Source: Candidatus Baltobacteraceae bacterium (GTDB lineage Bacteria > Vulcanimicrobiota > Vulcanimicrobiia > Vulcanimicrobiales > Vulcanimicrobiaceae). Taken from it: a stretch of 64,000 nt of DNA. Each line of letters begins with the position of its first letter. The first letter of the stretch is position 1. The stretch is from assembly GCA_036489885.1 (NCBI GenBank), contig DASXEW010000003.1, positions 434,001 through 498,000 on the forward strand, given 5' to 3'. A program made the position numbers and the translations under genes. This document shows positions 42,496 to 63,990 of this stretch, in pieces. The notes under the pieces are model-generated. The model was given only the letters and a program-made list of their open reading frames with translations. It had not been told where the DNA came from and did no database searches.

Positions 42496-43572
42496 ATGAA
42501 AGCACTTCGTCTTTTTGCGGTCATGATTGCGGCGCTCGCATTCGTGGCATTTCCTCTAACGGCGCGAGCGCAAGTCTCGGTCGGGATCTCGATCGGAACG
42601 CCACCTCCGCCGATCCCGGTCTACGCCGTTCCGGGCCCACCGGGTCCCAATTACGTCTGGGAACCGGGCTATTGGGCGTGGGGCCCCGGCGGCTATTACT
42701 GGGTCCCCGGCACATGGGTGTATGCGCCCCAATACGGGCTGTACTGGACGCCCGGTTATTGGAATTGGACCGGATTCGGCTTCGCGTTCGTCGCCGGATA
42801 TTGGGGCCCGCAAGTCGGCTACTACGGCGGCGTCAACTACGGCGGCGGCTATTGGGGTAACGGCTACGTCGGCGGTTACTGGCGGCACAATTCGTTCGTC
42901 TACAACACCTATGTCGTCAACGTAAACCGCAACGCCGTCGGAGGGAACGTCTACTACCATTCGTATCCGCGCGGCGGAACGCAAGTAGGCTATGTCGGCG
43001 GAACCGGCGGGTTGCGGACGCGTCCAACCGCTCAACAAACGACGTATATGCACGCGCACCACTATGCGCCGACGTCCGCGCAGGTTCAACACGCGCAGAT
43101 CGCGTCGCAGAATCGCGCCTACTATGCGCACGTCAACAACGGACGCCCGGCGACTGCCGCAGTAGCTCGCCCCTACACGGCCGCAACGCGACCTGCGAAT
43201 TTCCGTCCGGTGACGACGCAAGATCGCACCGCGGCGCAGGCTGCCATCAGGCATGCGCCGGCCGCAGCTCCGCACGCAGCCCCAATGCAACATGCGGCTC
43301 CGGCGCACGCGGCGCCAGTGCATCATGCGGCTCCGGCGCACGCGGCCCCAATGCAACATGCGGCTCCGGCGCACGCGGCCCCAATGCAACATGCGGCTCC
43401 GGCGCACGCGGCCCCAATGCATCATGCGGCTCCGGCGCACGCGGCCCCAATGCATCATGCGGCTCCGGCGCACGCGGCCCCAATGCAACATGCGGCTCCC
43501 GCGCACGCGGCGCCTCAGCATGCTGCGCCGCAACACGCAGCCCCACCAGGCGATCACAAGGAGCAGCACTAG
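42496..43572 (+). CDS. YXWGXW-repeat secreted protein with His/Ala/Pro-rich repeat tail
   Basis: 358-aa exported protein from ATG 42496 (AAGGAC 6 nt upstream); the frame opens earlier inside the SDR gene. Signal peptide MKALRLFAVMIAALAFVAF to ARA. Residues ~50-130 are WxxGxW-type repeats (YVWEPGYWAWGPGGYYWVPG, LYWTPGYWNW, VAGYWGP), then a Gly/Tyr-rich segment. Residues ~255-345 are a tandem array of HAAPAHAAPM(Q/H), 11 residues per unit, which could bind metals. The YXWGXW family is found in envelope proteins of Proteobacteria and Acidobacteriota; function unknown. A strong terminator follows at 43591. Confidence 0.85.
   Translation: MKALRLFAVMIAALAFVAFPLTARAQVSVGISIGTPPPPIPVYAVPGPPGPNYVWEPGYWAWGPGGYYWVPGTWVYAPQYGLYWTPGYWNWTGFGFAFVAGYWGPQVGYYGGVNYGGGYWGNGYVGGYWRHNSFVYNTYVVNVNRNAVGGNVYYHSYPRGGTQVGYVGGTGGLRTRPTAQQTTYMHAHHYAPTSAQVQHAQIASQNRAYYAHVNNGRPATAAVARPYTAATRPANFRPVTTQDRTAAQAAIRHAPAAAPHAAPMQHAAPAHAAPVHHAAPAHAAPMQHAAPAHAAPMQHAAPAHAAPMHHAAPAHAAPMHHAAPAHAAPMQHAAPAHAAPQHAAPQHAAPPGDHKEQH
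43291..43521 (+). repeat. Coding tandem repeat, seven 33-bp units
   Basis: Units begin with CATGCGGCTCC at 43291, 43324, 43357, 43390, 43423, 43456 and 43489, exactly 33 bp apart. Unit differences are confined to a few bases (CAACATG versus CATCATG, GGCGCCAGTG versus GGCCCCAATG). The array lies inside the YXWGXW gene and encodes HAAPAHAAPMQ-type units. The high identity suggests recent expansion by slippage or unequal exchange. Confidence 0.9.
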
Positions 43573-56367: not shown

Positions 56368-57528
56368 ATGGCTTCATTCCCGGGCGTCGTGAGCGCCGTG
56401 CTCACCGCATCGCCACGACGGAAATTGACGCTGCCGATTCTCGACGGATACATCTTCCGCGAGATGGCGCCGCCGTTTGCGATCGGCCTCTGCGCCTATC
56501 TGCTCTTTCAGTTCTTGAACATTTTCTTCTTAGCGGCAGACTACGTCATCAACCAGCACGCGTCGGTACTCTTGGTCTTGCGGTTTTTGATTCTGCGCGT
56601 TCCGCAAGCTGCGCCGCTGGCGTTCATTTTCGGATGTCTGTTTGGAACGATGCTCGCATTCGGCCGCTTAGTCGCGGACAACGAGATCACGGCCCTGCGC
56701 ACTTCGGGCATCTCGTTTTGGCGCATCGCTCGCGTCCCACTGCTGTTCGGGTTGGGCGCATTTTTGCTGTCGTGGTTCATCAACGAAGAGCTCGCACCGA
56801 AAGCCACGACGCTCTCGACGCGAACGTTCTATCAGATCATCTACCACACCTCAGCATTGCCGATCGAGCCGCAAATCTTCCGCAAAGATCCGACGACGGG
56901 ACGCGTCTTCTTCGTCAACACCGTAGATTCGATCACGCACGAGATGTCCGATGTGATGATCTTCGATCGCGGAACCAGCTCGCCGTTCGACTCGGTCATG
57001 ACTGCAAAGCAAGCCTACATCAAAGACGGCAAGCTGCACTTGCAACATCCGACGATCATCCGCTTCAAGCCGAGCGGCTTCGTGGACGTGGAGAATCGCA
57101 GCGAAGAGGTCATCGTCGGTTTGCCGCTCGACGTCAACGCCGATGAATTCTTCAATCAATCCGGCGGCGATCCGACCGCGCTTGATTCGAAAACGCTCTC
57201 GGCACAAATCAGAGCTCTCCAAGTAACCGGCACGGGCGGACAGGCGATCGACAATTTGAAGTTAATCCTGGCATCGCGCCGCGCGTTGCCCTTCGGTTGT
57301 TTCATTGCGATTCTCGTCTCACTGCCGTTGGCCGTCGTTTTCGGCCGGCGCGGGCGCGAGCTCGGCATGGCGCTCTCGTTAACCGTGATGTTCGTGTACT
57401 ATCTCGCAGCCTCCGCGATGGCGGCGCTCGGAAGGAACGGCGTCGTCGACGCAACGCTCGCATCGTGGACGCCGAACATCATCGTCGGAGTGGCAGGCGC
57501 CGTGCTTTTGCGCAAAGTCGAACGATAA
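56368..57528 (+). CDS. LptF/LptG-family LPS export permease
   Basis: 386-aa YjgP/YjgQ family protein: TM1 starts after LDGYIFREMAPPFAIGL, TM2-TM3 follow with VPQAAPLAFIFGCLFGTML and ADNEITALRTSGIS. A periplasmic beta-jellyroll region spans ~140-275, and three more helices end the protein. It normally works with LptB ATPase as an LptF-LptG heterodimer to extract LPS. Only one such gene is in the window and LptB is absent. It is 11 bp upstream of LptD. Confidence 0.9.
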   Translation: MASFPGVVSAVLTASPRRKLTLPILDGYIFREMAPPFAIGLCAYLLFQFLNIFFLAADYVINQHASVLLVLRFLILRVPQAAPLAFIFGCLFGTMLAFGRLVADNEITALRTSGISFWRIARVPLLFGLGAFLLSWFINEELAPKATTLSTRTFYQIIYHTSALPIEPQIFRKDPTTGRVFFVNTVDSITHEMSDVMIFDRGTSSPFDSVMTAKQAYIKDGKLHLQHPTIIRFKPSGFVDVENRSEEVIVGLPLDVNADEFFNQSGGDPTALDSKTLSAQIRALQVTGTGGQAIDNLKLILASRRALPFGCFIAILVSLPLAVVFGRRGRELGMALSLTVMFVYYLAASAMAALGRNGVVDATLASWTPNIIVGVAGAVLLRKVER

Positions 57529-57539
57529 AGCGGTACCAG

Positions 57540-60089
57540 ATGCGCGGGTGGATAGCTTGTTGCTTGGCAATCGCGGTGTTCGCGATTTATGCGCTCCCAG
57601 CTAACGGCGAAAACGCATATCAGACGCCTGAAGCCTTACAGGCGCTTGCGATTCTCGATCATTCGTGTTCGCCCGACTCCAACGTCAAAGACCGTCTACC
57701 GGACATCAAGTCGCTGCTGAAGCGCGCCGGACGCCGCAGTACATATTTCCAAGTCGCGCAAGCCGAAGAAAGCGCGTCGCCCGCGCCGGTACCGACGGGA
57801 CCGGGCAACGGAACTCCGATTCCGGGCGCCTCACCAACGCCGTTCGCTCAACAGCCGCCGATCGGTCCGGGCGTCATTCCGCCGCCGACGACGCCGCCGT
57901 CCACGTCGGCGCCTGCGCCGCCAGCCGTTCCGTCGCCATCTCCGTCGTCGACCGGAACGCTCGGACCGCTGCCGATCGTGCGTCCGACGGGCGGCGTGCC
58001 GACCGTGGCGCCGAGAAGCACATCACCAACGCCGTTTCCAACGGGTTCGCCGTTGCCCGGACCCTCGCCGACGATCGCGCCGTTACAGCCGGGACAGATT
58101 CTTTTGTTGTCCGACCGCTACGCGGGCTCAACGGACGAGAGCAAGCCGCAAGATTTCGACGGCAACGTCAACCTGTTCTACGATCAGGGCGTCATCGTCG
58201 CCGAGCACGCGCACTACGACGGCTCGCGATATCTCGATTTCACCGGACATCCGTACCTGCGCAATTATTCGGGCGACACGGTGTTCGTCGCGGATACCAT
58301 TCGCTTCGACAAGTTTACGCAGCAGGCAACGTTGGTCCATGGCAGCGGCGACACGACCGAAGGTGTTGAGAAAGGCAAACTGCATTTCTCGGCGGCCGAG
58401 ATGGTTACGCTACGCAACGGACACACGGTCGGCAAGAATGCGAGTTGGACGACGTGCGACAATCCGCACGCCGGCTATCACATGGAATCCAAGACGTTCG
58501 AAATGCGCCCTAACGACAAGATCATCGCGCGCAAAGTCACCGTCTTTCTCGGCCCGCTTGCGATCTTCTACCTTCCCGTACTCGTCATCAGTCTCGTGCA
58601 CGACAAGGGTCCGCCGCGGACTTCATTCCTGCCGCTCTTCGGATACGATCAAGCCGAAGGCTTTTGGGTCAAGACACGATTCGGCTTTGGAAACAGCCAG
58701 CAATTCTACGGATATTACCGGCTCGAGTATTATTCGAAGCTGGGCATAGGTTTCGGTGCGAACTTCGTTATCGGTACGCGCAATCACCGGCGGCAGACGA
58801 CGATTGACTTTTATCGTTCGCCGCCCAAGCCCAGCGGCGGCGCCAACAACTTCAACCTGAACGATCAAGAGAATCTGAGCTCAAAGCTCAAGGCTCAATT
58901 TCAGGTTCAGTACATCAGCAATTACGGTCCGCTCGTCACCGGTCAACCTCCATCGACGACGATCGGCGGCAGCATCGCATACACCGGCGCGCGCACGAGC
59001 GACGACTTTACGTTTCAGCGCTACCAACAAGGCTCCGAACAAGGCTCCGACAATCTCGGCTACACCGAGACGATCAATTTCCGCCAGAACCTCACCGAAG
59101 CGCTCAACATCGGCTGGACGCGTAACTTCAACTCGCTGGCCGGACAGTCGAGCAACGTCGACTCGACCACGATACAATCGTTGTTGAACTATACGACGCC
59201 TTGGGCGCTTTACAGCATGAACTTCAACAAGACGTTGTCGCTCGAGCCCAGTGGAAAAGACATCGAGCCGGAGTTCTCGATTCAGCCGCGTGCGATCTTC
59301 CCGTACGACAAAGCCATACCGATAACGGCGCAGTTCGTAACGGGCGAGTATACCGAACCCCAAACGCCGTTCTCAACGGCGGCGGGAGATCTCTCGCTCA
59401 ACTTCGGTCCGGCACTTGCGCACTTCTGGGGCAGCGATTTCTCAGCAACCATGCGCGTGCAGCAATATGCGTTTGCAACCGGCGACATGAAGGCTGAAAT
59501 CGACCAACAAGCTTCATTTACGACTCCGTTCGGCAATCATGTCCTCAACGCGATCACGTACACGGAAACGAATTCGAACGGTCCGGAAAGCGAGCCGTTC
59601 CAAACCTTCGACTTGCTTTCCGGCGGCTCGCACGGTGCGCAAGACGTCATACAGTTCTACAATCAGGACGATTGGGTGTTGCGTCTCGCAAGCGGCACCG
59701 GTTTCAACCGTCAGGCACAACCGATTTCATATTCGCTGACCGTACGGCCGTCGTTGCGCTCGTTTTTCACGATGAACGGTTCGTGGGCTCCGGGTCCCGG
59801 TCAGGGCTTCGAAACCACGCAATATCAGATCATCACGCCGTTCGGCTACAAAACCGATCTACAATTCGCAGCCACACAGAATTGGAAAGCCCGGGGACAG
59901 ATTACCGACAAAGTCGTGTATCTACGGCGTATCATCGGCGACTGTTATGACGTGCGCGTATCCTACAACCAGGACCTCAAGCTCGTCTCCGTCGGGTTCG
60001 ACTTGCTCGCATTCCCGTCGTACGGCGTCAATTTCGGTTTAGGTCAAGTCGGATCGATCGTTCCGGGCAACCTCACCGGCTCGTTCTAG
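57540..60089 (+). CDS. lptD: LPS-assembly protein LptD-like outer membrane protein with proline-rich linker
   Basis: 849 aa from ATG 57540. Signal peptide MRGWIACCLAIAVFAIYAL. Residues ~75-185 form a Pro/Ser/Thr-rich linker. The OstA/LptD beta-jellyroll (~190-400) has FDGNVNLFYDQGVIVAEHA and VFLGPLAIFYLPVLVISLV. The rest is a large barrel with LptD-type strands ending near the C-terminus. It would place LPS-like glycolipid in the outer leaflet. The linker is much longer than in E. coli LptD. Follows the LptF/G gene by 11 bp; LptE is not seen. Confidence 0.88.
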   Translation: MRGWIACCLAIAVFAIYALPANGENAYQTPEALQALAILDHSCSPDSNVKDRLPDIKSLLKRAGRRSTYFQVAQAEESASPAPVPTGPGNGTPIPGASPTPFAQQPPIGPGVIPPPTTPPSTSAPAPPAVPSPSPSSTGTLGPLPIVRPTGGVPTVAPRSTSPTPFPTGSPLPGPSPTIAPLQPGQILLLSDRYAGSTDESKPQDFDGNVNLFYDQGVIVAEHAHYDGSRYLDFTGHPYLRNYSGDTVFVADTIRFDKFTQQATLVHGSGDTTEGVEKGKLHFSAAEMVTLRNGHTVGKNASWTTCDNPHAGYHMESKTFEMRPNDKIIARKVTVFLGPLAIFYLPVLVISLVHDKGPPRTSFLPLFGYDQAEGFWVKTRFGFGNSQQFYGYYRLEYYSKLGIGFGANFVIGTRNHRRQTTIDFYRSPPKPSGGANNFNLNDQENLSSKLKAQFQVQYISNYGPLVTGQPPSTTIGGSIAYTGARTSDDFTFQRYQQGSEQGSDNLGYTETINFRQNLTEALNIGWTRNFNSLAGQSSNVDSTTIQSLLNYTTPWALYSMNFNKTLSLEPSGKDIEPEFSIQPRAIFPYDKAIPITAQFVTGEYTEPQTPFSTAAGDLSLNFGPALAHFWGSDFSATMRVQQYAFATGDMKAEIDQQASFTTPFGNHVLNAITYTETNSNGPESEPFQTFDLLSGGSHGAQDVIQFYNQDDWVLRLASGTGFNRQAQPISYSLTVRPSLRSFFTMNGSWAPGPGQGFETTQYQIITPFGYKTDLQFAATQNWKARGQITDKVVYLRRIIGDCYDVRVSYNQDLKLVSVGFDLLAFPSYGVNFGLGQVGSIVPGNLTGSF

Positions 60090-60096
60090 TCTTCTC

Positions 60097-60261
60097 CTAG
60101 CGATCGTCGCACGGCGGATGACCGCATTCGCAGAAGTCCATCTCTTCGGCTTCATCCGCAGCCTGGCAGTATTCGCTGCAAAATGCCTCGGTGTCGATCA
60201 CCTCGGTAACCATGCAATTACAGGTCGCATTCGCGCACTCAATCGTCTGCTGATTGCTCAT
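60097..60261 (-). CDS. Bacterial metallothionein (SmtA/BmtA-like)
   Basis: 54-aa cysteine-rich protein. Eight cysteines (C9, C14, C16, C28, C32, C44, C46, C51) and H48 follow the SmtA pattern: ECANATCNC, then AFCSEYC and CECGHPPC; the middle FCSEYC corresponds to YYCSEAC and CECGH to KGCGH of the cyanobacterial protein. It would sequester Zn, Cd or Cu ions in four-cluster form. Its ATG overlaps the stop of the lipoprotein gene (ATGA), so it is co-translated. It ends 7 bp from the convergent LptD stop. Confidence 0.85.
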   Translation of the reverse strand: MSNQQTIECANATCNCMVTEVIDTEAFCSEYCQAADEAEEMDFCECGHPPCDDR

Positions 60262-61088
60262 GGGAACGCGTTCTTGATCTCTCCGCCGGCGATAGTTGTA
60301 CTTGCATTACCGGTACCGACCGCGCCGGCTGGTACGGTCAGCTGGTTGACGTAGTCGAATATCGTGTTGGTCGGCAGCGGCAGCGAGAACGTCGTGTCCG
60401 TGCGGCCGTTGAGCCCCAGTGCGTCTAGTGGTACCCCGTTTTGATCGAGGACAAAGAAGTTCACGTACCACGTGTCGCAGACATAGAGAAATTGCACGCT
60501 GCACGAGTTGCTGGGCAGTGGTGAGGGTGACGGCGTCACGCCCGGAGGCAGCGGCGTCGGGCTCGGCGTCGGCGTTACGCCGGAGGGCAGCGCAGTCGGG
60601 GTAGGCGACGGCGAGGGAGTTGCGGCGCCGATCGGTGGCCGGTCGAGGAGCGTACGTGAGAAGAGCAACGTGAATTGGGTGTTCTGTCCGTTGCTGTTCA
60701 ATGTAAGCGTCGCCAAGTTGAGCGGCACGACGATTTGCTGGGTCCCGACGTTGGTCGTGCTACCGGGGGTCAGATAGTATTGCAGCAGGACGGGCGGACT
60801 TTGAACGGTTCCGAATTTTCCCCCGATGAACCAGGCAAACGAATAATTCAAGAAGCCGCCGTTGAATTGCGTATTGGCATACGGCGTACCGCCGTTAGCG
60901 CTCGTGTTGAACACGATCGCGTACGTGTAATCCGTGAAGTCGAAGGGTCCGGAAACGGTGTAGCGGATCAGCATGTTCCCGGACGGAAGACCGGCGATGG
61001 TCCCCGGCGCGGGGAACGTCACCTGGCGCCCGCACGCGGCAAGCATGATCGCGACGAGAGAGAAAGCTAAACCGATCGACCGTAACAT
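60258..61088 (-). CDS. Lipoprotein of unknown function with Pro/Ser/Thr repeats
   Basis: 276 aa from ATG 61088 (GAGGTCAGG directly upstream); the frame continues upstream through the divergent lnt gene. Lipoprotein signal MLRSIGLAFSLVAIMLAAC. The middle (~25-155) is beta-rich (GNMLIRYTVSGPFDFTDYTY), then a Pro/Ser/Thr repeat region (TPSPSPTPTALPSGVT, repeated about three times at ~160-200), then a C-terminal beta segment with one Cys pair. No family recognised. Operon with metallothionein (4-bp overlap). Confidence 0.75.
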   Translation of the reverse strand: MLRSIGLAFSLVAIMLAACGRQVTFPAPGTIAGLPSGNMLIRYTVSGPFDFTDYTYAIVFNTSANGGTPYANTQFNGGFLNYSFAWFIGGKFGTVQSPPVLLQYYLTPGSTTNVGTQQIVVPLNLATLTLNSNGQNTQFTLLFSRTLLDRPPIGAATPSPSPTPTALPSGVTPTPSPTPLPPGVTPSPSPLPSNSCSVQFLYVCDTWYVNFFVLDQNGVPLDALGLNGRTDTTFSLPLPTNTIFDYVNQLTVPAGAVGTGNASTTIAGGEIKNAFP

Positions 61089-61116: not shown

Positions 61117-62616
61117 GTGATCTCTGTGGCGTCCGCAGTTGCGTTGACGGCGGCATTCCCAAAGCTCGATTGGGCTTGGATTGCGCCGTTTGCAATGGCC
61201 GGACTTTTTTGGTCCTGGTTCGTGACTCCCGCTCGCACCGCGTTCTGGATCGGACTTCTCAACGGGGCTTTGTTTTTCACGATCATGTACTCGTGGTTTG
61301 GCGTGACCGCGGCCAGCCTGGTCGGTCCCTATGGCTTCGTGACCGTTCTGGGACCCGCGATCGGCGATGCGCTCGCCTTCGCGTTCGCCGGGTTCTTCGC
61401 GTCGCTCGTTTTCGCACGCGCTCCGGGGCTTCTGGGAGCATTTGCCGGAGCTGCGGCGTTCGCGGTCAGCGAATGGTGCCGTTCGGTCGGGGTGCTGGGC
61501 GTGCCGTTCGCGCAGATCGGCTACTCGCAAACATCGAGCCTCTTTGGGCCGCTCGCCGCGTATGGCGGATCGATCTTCGTCACATTCATAGTCGCCGCAA
61601 TCGGCGCCGTGTTCGCCTCCTATGTCATCGAGCGCACGCGCCTCATTCAAACGATTGCGGGTCTGGCCGCGATCGGGCTGTTGACCCTCGCAGCGTATGC
61701 GTTCTGGCCGGCACGTCATGCCGCGCCGGCTACGATTCCGGTTTCCGCAATTCAAGGCAACATCAAACAGCAGACAAAGTGGGATCCGCAATCATTTTTT
61801 CTCGCCTTCGAACGCTACGTCGAATTGACGCAGGCCACGCAGGCTACGCATCCGGTTTTCGTGCTCTGGCCGGAAACGGTGATCACTGCGGCGATTGGCG
61901 ACGATGATGCACTTGCACCAAGAGACGTCCCCGGCGCGCGTCAAACACGCGAACGCTTCGGGATGCTCGCGCAGAGCTTGAACACGACGATCGCGGTAGG
62001 CTCGCTCGAAGTCTCACACGACGGTTTGCACAACGCGCTCTACTTTTTCGCACCGGACGGCATGCTCGACGTCCTCTACCGGAAACGTCAGCTGGTGCCG
62101 TACGCGGAGTGGATTCCGTTTGGCAGCTCCTTGCTCAAATGGTTTCCCTATCTCGATCAGCTCGGAAGGCAAGTCCCCGGGCACGATCCGGCGGTCGTCA
62201 CGATCGGTCCGCTTGACATCGCGCCGCTCATCTGCTGGGAATCCGCATTTTCCGACGTGGTTCACGATCAGATTGCACGCGGCGCAAACCTCCTCGCAAT
62301 TTCGACCGACGACGGTTGGTTCGGCGAAAGCGCCGGACCCTACCAGCACGCGCAAATTGCGCAAATGCGCGCGATTGAAAGCGGCCGCTGGGTGCTGCGC
62401 GCGGCCGCCACGGGTGTCTCCGGGATCATTGCGCCCGACGGTCACTGGACGCAGCGCTCGGGTCTCGACGAGCAAGTCGCGATCAATGGTTTCGTCGGAC
62501 CCCCGGCCCCAACGCTGTTCGCAACGATCGGACCCTGGAACGTCGCGTACGCGCTGTTCGCATTTTATCTTCTCTCGCTCCTCATCGGTTGGCGATGGCA
62601 AAACGCCTTGCACTAA
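61117..62616 (+). CDS. lnt: Apolipoprotein N-acyltransferase
   Basis: About 499 aa; the start is uncertain between GTG 61117, GTG 61126 and CTG 61090, since no Shine-Dalgarno sequence is clear. N-terminal eight-helix region, then a C-terminal nitrilase-like domain with the Lnt triad: Glu in LWPETVITAA, Lys in YRKRQLVPYAEWIPFG and Cys in PLICWESAFSD; the EWIPFG and GPYQHAQIAQMRAIE elements are characteristic. It adds the third acyl chain to lipoproteins in the inner membrane, serving the several lipoproteins of this window. It overlaps the LptC-like gene by 22 bp. Confidence 0.92.
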   Translation: MISVASAVALTAAFPKLDWAWIAPFAMAGLFWSWFVTPARTAFWIGLLNGALFFTIMYSWFGVTAASLVGPYGFVTVLGPAIGDALAFAFAGFFASLVFARAPGLLGAFAGAAAFAVSEWCRSVGVLGVPFAQIGYSQTSSLFGPLAAYGGSIFVTFIVAAIGAVFASYVIERTRLIQTIAGLAAIGLLTLAAYAFWPARHAAPATIPVSAIQGNIKQQTKWDPQSFFLAFERYVELTQATQATHPVFVLWPETVITAAIGDDDALAPRDVPGARQTRERFGMLAQSLNTTIAVGSLEVSHDGLHNALYFFAPDGMLDVLYRKRQLVPYAEWIPFGSSLLKWFPYLDQLGRQVPGHDPAVVTIGPLDIAPLICWESAFSDVVHDQIARGANLLAISTDDGWFGESAGPYQHAQIAQMRAIESGRWVLRAAATGVSGIIAPDGHWTQRSGLDEQVAINGFVGPPAPTLFATIGPWNVAYALFAFYLLSLLIGWRWQNALH

Positions 62617-63125: not shown

Positions 63126-63649
63126 ACAGCATGCGCAGCTCCTTGATCGCGTGCTTCATTCTCGTTCTCATGGTGTCGGCATGCAGCGGAAAGGGCGGCG
63201 GTGGCGCCTCACCCGACGCGACGCCGACGAGCGATACATATCTCTCCCATCGCGGCGAGGTGATGCCGCTGCGTAGCGCGCTCGGCGGAGTCGCATTTCG
63301 CCCGTTCATTCCGGCGCGCGAGATCATCGAAACCGCTGTTCTTCCCGCTTACAACGGCGGAGACGACACGCGTGTTAATCGCGGCATCGGTTTCGAGTAC
63401 ACCTCGAAACGAGAAGCTTACGTTCTCAAAGAATGGCCGGGAAGCGGCTTGCCCGGGCCGCGCAACGTCGCTACGATCGACAATTGCCTAATCACGTCGT
63501 ACGACATCAGTGGCGGTGCGACCGGAAAGCAAGGAGCGCTATGGTCGAACGGACGAGTCGTTTCCAATCTTGTCGCGGTCGGCAACGCCTCTGACCGTGA
63601 GACGTTCGAGGAAGCGCGCCGGCTCGTTCGTCTCGGCGCGTGCCGTTAA
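63122..63649 (+). CDS. Lipoprotein of unknown function
   Basis: 175 aa from GTG 63122 (overlapping the LptC-like stop) or 172 aa from the ATG at codon 4. Lipoprotein signal RSSLIACFILVLMVSAC with a clear lipobox, then a Gly/Asp-rich linker. The folded part (~45-175) begins RGEVMPLRSALGGVAF and contains IDNCLITSYDISGGATGKQG. No family recognised. Its place at the end of the lnt-lptC run suggests an envelope role. It shares TTAA with the convergent KGG gene. Confidence 0.75.
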   Translation: MNSMRSSLIACFILVLMVSACSGKGGGGASPDATPTSDTYLSHRGEVMPLRSALGGVAFRPFIPAREIIETAVLPAYNGGDDTRVNRGIGFEYTSKREAYVLKEWPGSGLPGPRNVATIDNCLITSYDISGGATGKQGALWSNGRVVSNLVAVGNASDRETFEEARRLVRLGACR

Positions 63650-63990
63650 GTCTTTTTTCCTTCCTCGATTTCGAGAGCTTTTTTCGCGTCGGCGATCAGC
63701 TTCTTGACTTTCTGACCGCCTTTGTGACCGATCTCTTCGTAGAAGTCAGAGCCGTACTTGTTCTTGACGACCTTGCCGCCTTTTTGGCCGATCGCTTCAT
63801 AGAACTCGGCGCCGTGCCGCTCGCGGGTAACTTGACCACCCTTACGGCCGATCTTTTCGTAAAAGCCTGAACCGTAGCGATCACGCACAGTGTCGCCGCC
63901 TTTTTTGCCAGCTTCACGCACCGACATTTCGCCGCCATCGTTTTCATCTTGTGGGCGTTCGTTCACATTTTTATCCTTGTCGGTTGCCAT
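63646..63990 (-). CDS. KGG-repeat stress-induced hydrophilic protein (GsiB/ConA10-like)
   Basis: 114-aa very hydrophilic protein with four KGG motifs (GKKGGDTV, GRKGGQVT, GQKGGKVV, GHKGGQKV). Three repeats follow a YGSGFYEKIGRKGG-like 20-residue period. This resembles Bacillus general stress protein GsiB and related desiccation proteins. It is probably made under general stress. The start ATG 63990 lies 10 bp from the window end; its promoter is outside. Confidence 0.9.
   Translation of the reverse strand: MATDKDKNVNERPQDENDGGEMSVREAGKKGGDTVRDRYGSGFYEKIGRKGGQVTRERHGAEFYEAIGQKGGKVVKNKYGSDFYEEIGHKGGQKVKKLIADAKKALEIEEGKKT

Follow-up and report, generated by a model that had tools for sequence, protein, structure and literature searches.

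The window, by which we mean the whole 64,000-nucleotide stretch of DNA analysed here, contains an LptF/LptG permease gene, a large gene in the LptD position, a short metallothionein-like gene, a lipoprotein gene and lnt, in that order (Table 1). The metallothionein-like gene encodes MSNQQTIECANATCNCMVTEVIDTEAFCSEYCQAADEAEEMDFCECGHPPCDDR. The four bases ATGA hold both its start codon and the TGA stop of the lipoprotein ORF, an overlap that the earlier note had pointed out and that can be read directly from the DNA. The gene in the LptD position converges on the metallothionein-like gene, with 7 bases between the ends of the two ORFs, and lnt diverges from the lipoprotein gene. The site had been described as lying between LptD and Lnt; the Lnt half of that description holds, whereas neither the Pfam and NCBIfam models nor a sequence search of the PDB supported the LptD name. 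A search of the genome for HTH_5 gave six matches, the closest around 40 kb away, and so placed no ArsR/SmtB-type regulator beside the metallothionein-like gene. A link between zinc and LpxC by position was rejected, as lpxC is around 178 kb distant. On the far side of lnt is a conserved gene for a KGG-repeat protein, and in many relatives two KGG genes lie close together. Elsewhere in the window, a predicted protein combines a WXXGXW repeat with a long tail of repeats rich in His, Ala, Pro and Met, and is possibly a metal binder.

Table 1 Features of the window discussed in the text.
Feature	Position in window	Strand	Basis
Predicted WXXGXW-repeat protein	42502–43569	+	PF12779
LptF/LptG permease	56368–57528	+	PF03739, 232 bits
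Large gene in the LptD position (name from the earlier note)	57543–60089	+	Gene position
Metallothionein-like gene, 54-aa product, ATG start	60097–60261	-	ORF list, family profile, Cys/His pattern
Lipoprotein gene, lipobox LAAC	60258–61088	-	Adjoins lnt
lnt, apolipoprotein N-acyltransferase (start approximate)	61117–62616	+	TIGR00546, 250 bits
KGG-repeat protein	63646–63990	-	PF10685 stress-induced motif

The 54-aa ORF is a real, conserved gene. A profile of its family matched 66 of 98 genomes at E ≤ 0.01, and a protein search with the window protein also matched 66 of the 98 at E ≤ 1, where the weakest matches (E 0.1–1) may be due to chance; both counts include the window's own genome, which holds a single metallothionein-like copy by either search. 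At E ≤ 0.01, the profile matched 50 of 61 genomes in the window's family, all four in its sister family, 12 of 14 in a third family of the class and none of 19 in the rest of the phylum. The search covered one further genome of the genus, whose copy is 68% identical to the window protein, and the better protein-search matches within the genome family share roughly 35–60% identity with it. The window gene and the same-genus copy differ at 12 first, 11 second and 32 third codon positions, the pattern seen in a protein-coding gene.

The window protein has eight Cys and one His in the arrangement C-x4-C-x-C-x11-C-x3-C-x11-C-x-C-G-H-x2-C. Ten columns (C9, C14, C16, C28, C32, C44, C46, G47, H48 and C51) are invariant in an alignment of 27 sequences, comprising the window protein and 26 chosen from 40 loci with mainly near-duplicates omitted; the linker in this alignment is acidic and variable in length. 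In a broader pattern check over 41 sequences, every one had all eight Cys and the His, and 40 had the Gly before the His (the exception is L063), in a sample that leans towards conservation because loci were picked as best matches. Related genomes were thus checked for the outcome that the earlier note had named as grounds for abandoning its proposal, a lost cysteine pattern, and it was not seen. Several metallothionein-like matches occur in single genomes of the same class: eight in G073 (on eight contigs; L117–L124), seven in G068 (among them L064, L067 and L125–L128) and five in G076 (among them L129–L130). The full Cys pattern is kept in every copy read from these genomes (eight, six and three, respectively). 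Away from the lnt site, 20 neighbouring genes from 11 of 15 loci were tested and 16 matched a family; these families include an MBL/beta-CASP nuclease, a multicopper oxidase, MetE-like and ClpB-like proteins, MsrA, an IclR regulator and a histidine kinase. This survey suggests that the multicopper oxidase (at L052) is the only one of these neighbours that plainly points to metal handling.

We compared the family with known metallothioneins by several routes. On its own, the window protein spans nearly the whole of the PF02069 (Metallothio_Pro) model with an E value of 0.28, and its 11.8 bits do not reach the curated cut-off of 33 bits; a single-sequence PDB search found no metallothionein. By contrast, the family profile searched against 177,635 PDB sequences gave three matches at E ≤ 10, every one of them named a metallothionein, with 1jjd (SmtA) at the top (E 0.0096) and the next two at E 0.42 and 1.1. 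PF02069 is also the commonest Pfam match among the family (16 of 27 members at E ≤ 1; best 6.3e-5); the zf-FLZ and DUF2116 (treble clef) models are touched by single members and DUF2256 by two. Aligned by hhalign to seven classical metallothionein sequences, the family gave a probability of 95.4 and an E value of 1.6e-8, which is for the single pair rather than for a database search. The classical set consists of SmtA and a second PDB metallothionein (both partial) and five of seven plasmid matches to SmtA, of which two are annotated as metallothionein and three are unannotated; its Nostoc and Trichormus rows are identical in the aligned region. In a rerun (probability 93.7, score 34.2), none of 200 full column shuffles reached the real score (best 20.7), and neither did any of 200 shuffles in which the Cys columns were held fixed (best 18.2), indicating that more than Cys spacing is common to the two profiles.

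Other approaches returned little. An AlphaFold model of the 54-aa protein built without an alignment is of low confidence (pLDDT 59.5) and was judged too poor for use; the 15 Foldseek matches to it include no metallothionein and none at E ≤ 0.001, and the best of them, to the zinc finger of YacG, is weak (E 0.42). Searching plasmids by tblastn with the 54-aa protein returned matches at E 8–9 only, PADLOC gave none, and a scan of genome contigs yielded one partial Streptomyces match of 9 residues, which was left unused. The profile comparisons indicate that the window protein is distantly related to the bacterial metallothioneins of the SmtA/BmtA type and that its ligand set is altered. We call it a variant of that type because its PF02069 score lies below the cut-off and part of the SmtA ligand set is absent. 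The profile comparison that the earlier note had recommended, which no shuffle of 400 could match, upholds its SmtA-like assignment as distant homology, but not as an identical set of ligands.

The lipoprotein gene is conserved beside lnt. A lipoprotein–lnt pair was found in 62 of 65 genomes (G000–G064; 61 of the window's family and 4 of the sister family), with two of the pairs, in G017 and G033, resting on contig-end fragments; the remaining three genomes had no LNT_N match either. A metallothionein is at the site in 29 of the 61 family genomes, in 20 on the lipoprotein strand and in 9 on the lnt strand, a total that combines 28 scripted finds near lnt with G033, in which the locus is split over two contigs and the metallothionein is beside the lipoprotein gene. 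None of the four sister-family genomes has a metallothionein near lnt, and 33 of the 62 pairs have none visible there, some of these absences perhaps being contig breaks. At the 26 of 29 loci that were measured, 19 metallothioneins are on the lipoprotein strand and the other 7 follow the LptD-position gene. With start codons set at those judged likely, 16 of the 19 same-strand copies overlap the lipoprotein stop or begin within 36 bases of it, and the overlap is ATGA in the window, its genus mate (L032) and L063. One flipped-strand group nests inside a same-strand group in a small, weakly resolved tree, and the place of the metallothionein seems to outlast its strand.

The lipoproteins themselves show no conserved metal ligands. 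Among 26 aligned sequences, all from loci with a metallothionein, the lipobox Cys is the sole Cys conserved in at least 85%, and no His is conserved. The window lipoprotein has three Cys and no His, and its relatives have 0–2 His in 22 of 25 cases and five His in three sequences with untrimmed starts; an AlphaFold model built without an alignment (pLDDT 33.2) was too poor for use. The lipoprotein had been called an orphan with a possible metal-handling job. It is not an orphan, as it adjoins lnt almost throughout, and the metal-handling job finds no support: more than half of the pairs (33 of 62) show no metallothionein there, 9 of the 29 metallothioneins at the site lie on the opposite strand, and conserved ligands are missing from the 26 aligned proteins. 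We conclude that the coupling between lipoprotein and metallothionein is positional and is not evidence of a metal-handling lipoprotein.

Upstream of many metallothionein genes we found a short element, GGG[TA]A (GGGWA). It occurs 9–11 bases 5' of the likely start codon in 18 of 41 genes, some of which share one genus and so are not independent; the remaining distances in the range 0–59 account for 7 occurrences. The sequence is GGGTA at 14 loci (L034, L036, L040, L041, L046, L048, L053, L057, L058, L060, L062, L065, L068 and L071) and GGGAA at four (L043, L066, L069 and L070). GGGTA-N10-ATG is uncommon ahead of ORFs of at least 40 aa, with 6 cases in 400 kb of G048 (the metallothionein included) and 3 in 464 kb of G000 (6 kb of which was counted twice). 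No -35 pattern emerged upstream of the genes with GGGWA. The position of the element suggests a start-codon-proximal promoter, with transcripts that would begin at or near the ATG. GGGWA is absent upstream of the window copy and its genus mate and was rejected as the window gene's own promoter; its absence there fits dependence on the lipoprotein gene. We also rejected the idea that the element is common to the metallothionein and the KGG stress protein gene, as the KGG upstream regions mostly lack GGGTA.

On this basis, we think it probable that the window gene encodes a small cytosolic metal–thiolate protein, related to SmtA and BmtA, that buffers or stores zinc and is read through from the lipoprotein gene. 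The four-cysteine zinc finger would probably be the core around which the protein folds, and the CxCGHxxC tail would complete a small cluster of Zn(II) or Cd(II), possibly of Cu(I). Judging from the eight Cys and one His, each protein may bind around three divalent metals; a Pseudomonas metallothionein binds three Zn (PMC7387436). The same paper reports that SmtA protects against zinc, and that a Pseudomonas protein of this kind is switched on in stationary phase, helps cells to survive starvation and is dispensable for metal resistance. Very tight Zn binding is reported for tested bacterial metallothioneins (PMC10612145). With these precedents, zinc buffering or storage would be the most likely role, and the protein could also take up excess soft metal. 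In the window's genus, it would be made by read-through and stop–start (ATGA) coupling from a presumably co-transcribed lipoprotein gene. Many relatives have the promoter-like element directly 5' of the start codon (18 of 41 genes), and it would act there instead.

A zinc finger of the SmtA kind, with one or two structural zincs, that binds a protein or nucleic acid partner and stores nothing would account for the four invariant Cys aligned with the finger region of SmtA, and the weak YacG match and the scattered contacts with zf-FLZ, DUF2116 and DUF2256 are in keeping with it. We nevertheless regard this explanation as unlikely, because four further Cys and the His are just as invariant and exceed what one finger needs, the acidic, length-variable linker offers no conserved partner surface, and the PDB sequences matched by the family profile are metallothioneins only.

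Two other possibilities carry much less weight. The notion raised by the earlier note, that metallothionein and lipoprotein form one functional unit handling metal at the envelope, draws on the three ATGA overlaps, the closeness of the same-strand copies to the lipoprotein stop and the recurrence of the metallothionein at the site in nearly half of the family genomes. Set against this are the many lipoprotein–lnt pairs in which no metallothionein is seen, the copies on the opposite strand, the flipped group nested among same-strand ones, and the 26 aligned mature lipoproteins with no conserved Cys or His beyond the lipobox Cys, and we hold such a unit to be very improbable. That the ORF arose by chance and has no product is scarcely conceivable: short length alone speaks for it, whereas the family is kept across three genome families with its Cys and His retained, and base changes are biased towards the third codon position.

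Beyond a probable zinc-buffering protein at one locus, we offer a speculative and distinctly doubtful proposal for the class as a whole. In it, one lineage of metallothioneins would span the class, its cluster rearranged by loss of the N-terminal CxC and acquisition of CxCGHxxC, with as many as eight copies in a single genome. One copy would long have kept its place at the LPS-export/lnt locus, on either strand, and would serve as a zinc reserve expressed in step with envelope building or growth arrest through start-proximal promoters, rather than as a metal-induced detoxifier. We found no paper linking metallothionein with Eremiobacterota or with Vulcanimicrobiota. A related set with different ligands in 66 of 98 genomes, a window member that falls under the Pfam cut-off and a window copy with no ArsR-type regulator beside it suggest that bacterial metallothioneins are more numerous than models derived from known members show. 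The natural variants in the family also lend themselves to the question of which ligands determine the affinity for zinc.

Among known proteins, SmtA of Synechococcus elongatus (PDB 1jjd) is similar in size to the window protein and, consistent with the profile homology, has C-x4-C-x-C, CS-x2-C and CGH-x2-C in the same order. Its C9, C14, C32 and C36 are the Cys of the zinc-finger site, and in the hhalign comparison the window's C9, C14, C28 and C32, invariant in the 27 sequences, align with the Cys of that region. The N-terminal CxC of SmtA is reduced to its first Cys in the window protein, which also has no linker His and has gained a Cys two residues before CGH (CxCGHxxC) that SmtA does not have. 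The window protein further lacks the final Cys of the longer classical sequences L072 and L075. The metal core of SmtA is Zn4Cys9His2 according to PMC10119931, a ligand set (9 Cys and 2 His) that the 8 Cys and 1 His of the window protein fall short of; SmtA itself probably has the final Cys as well, since eight Cys are printed and the paper counts nine. SmtA, of the cyanobacterial type, adjoins an SmtB-type regulator, unlike the window gene. One 46-aa protein (L121, on contig C101 of G073) has both an SmtA-like CGCxxCxC start and a CxCGHxxC end; it had no Pfam match and a weak metallothionein match in the PDB (E 0.32), and it is apparently an intermediate between classical metallothioneins and the window family.

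The two weaker matches of the family profile, at E 0.42 and 1.1, are the metallothioneins 6grv and 6gv7, which we take to be a Pseudomonas protein, that of P. fluorescens Q2-87. As printed, these chains have the full N-terminal CxCxxCxC that the window protein lacks. According to PMC7387436, Pseudomonas metallothioneins differ further in a disordered tail, and they resemble the window copy in having no metal-responsive regulator and in presumably sharing an operon with genes whose function is unknown. With SmtA-like zinc fingers, finally, the window protein has the four-Cys finger region in common, and its family differs from them in four more invariant Cys and a His.
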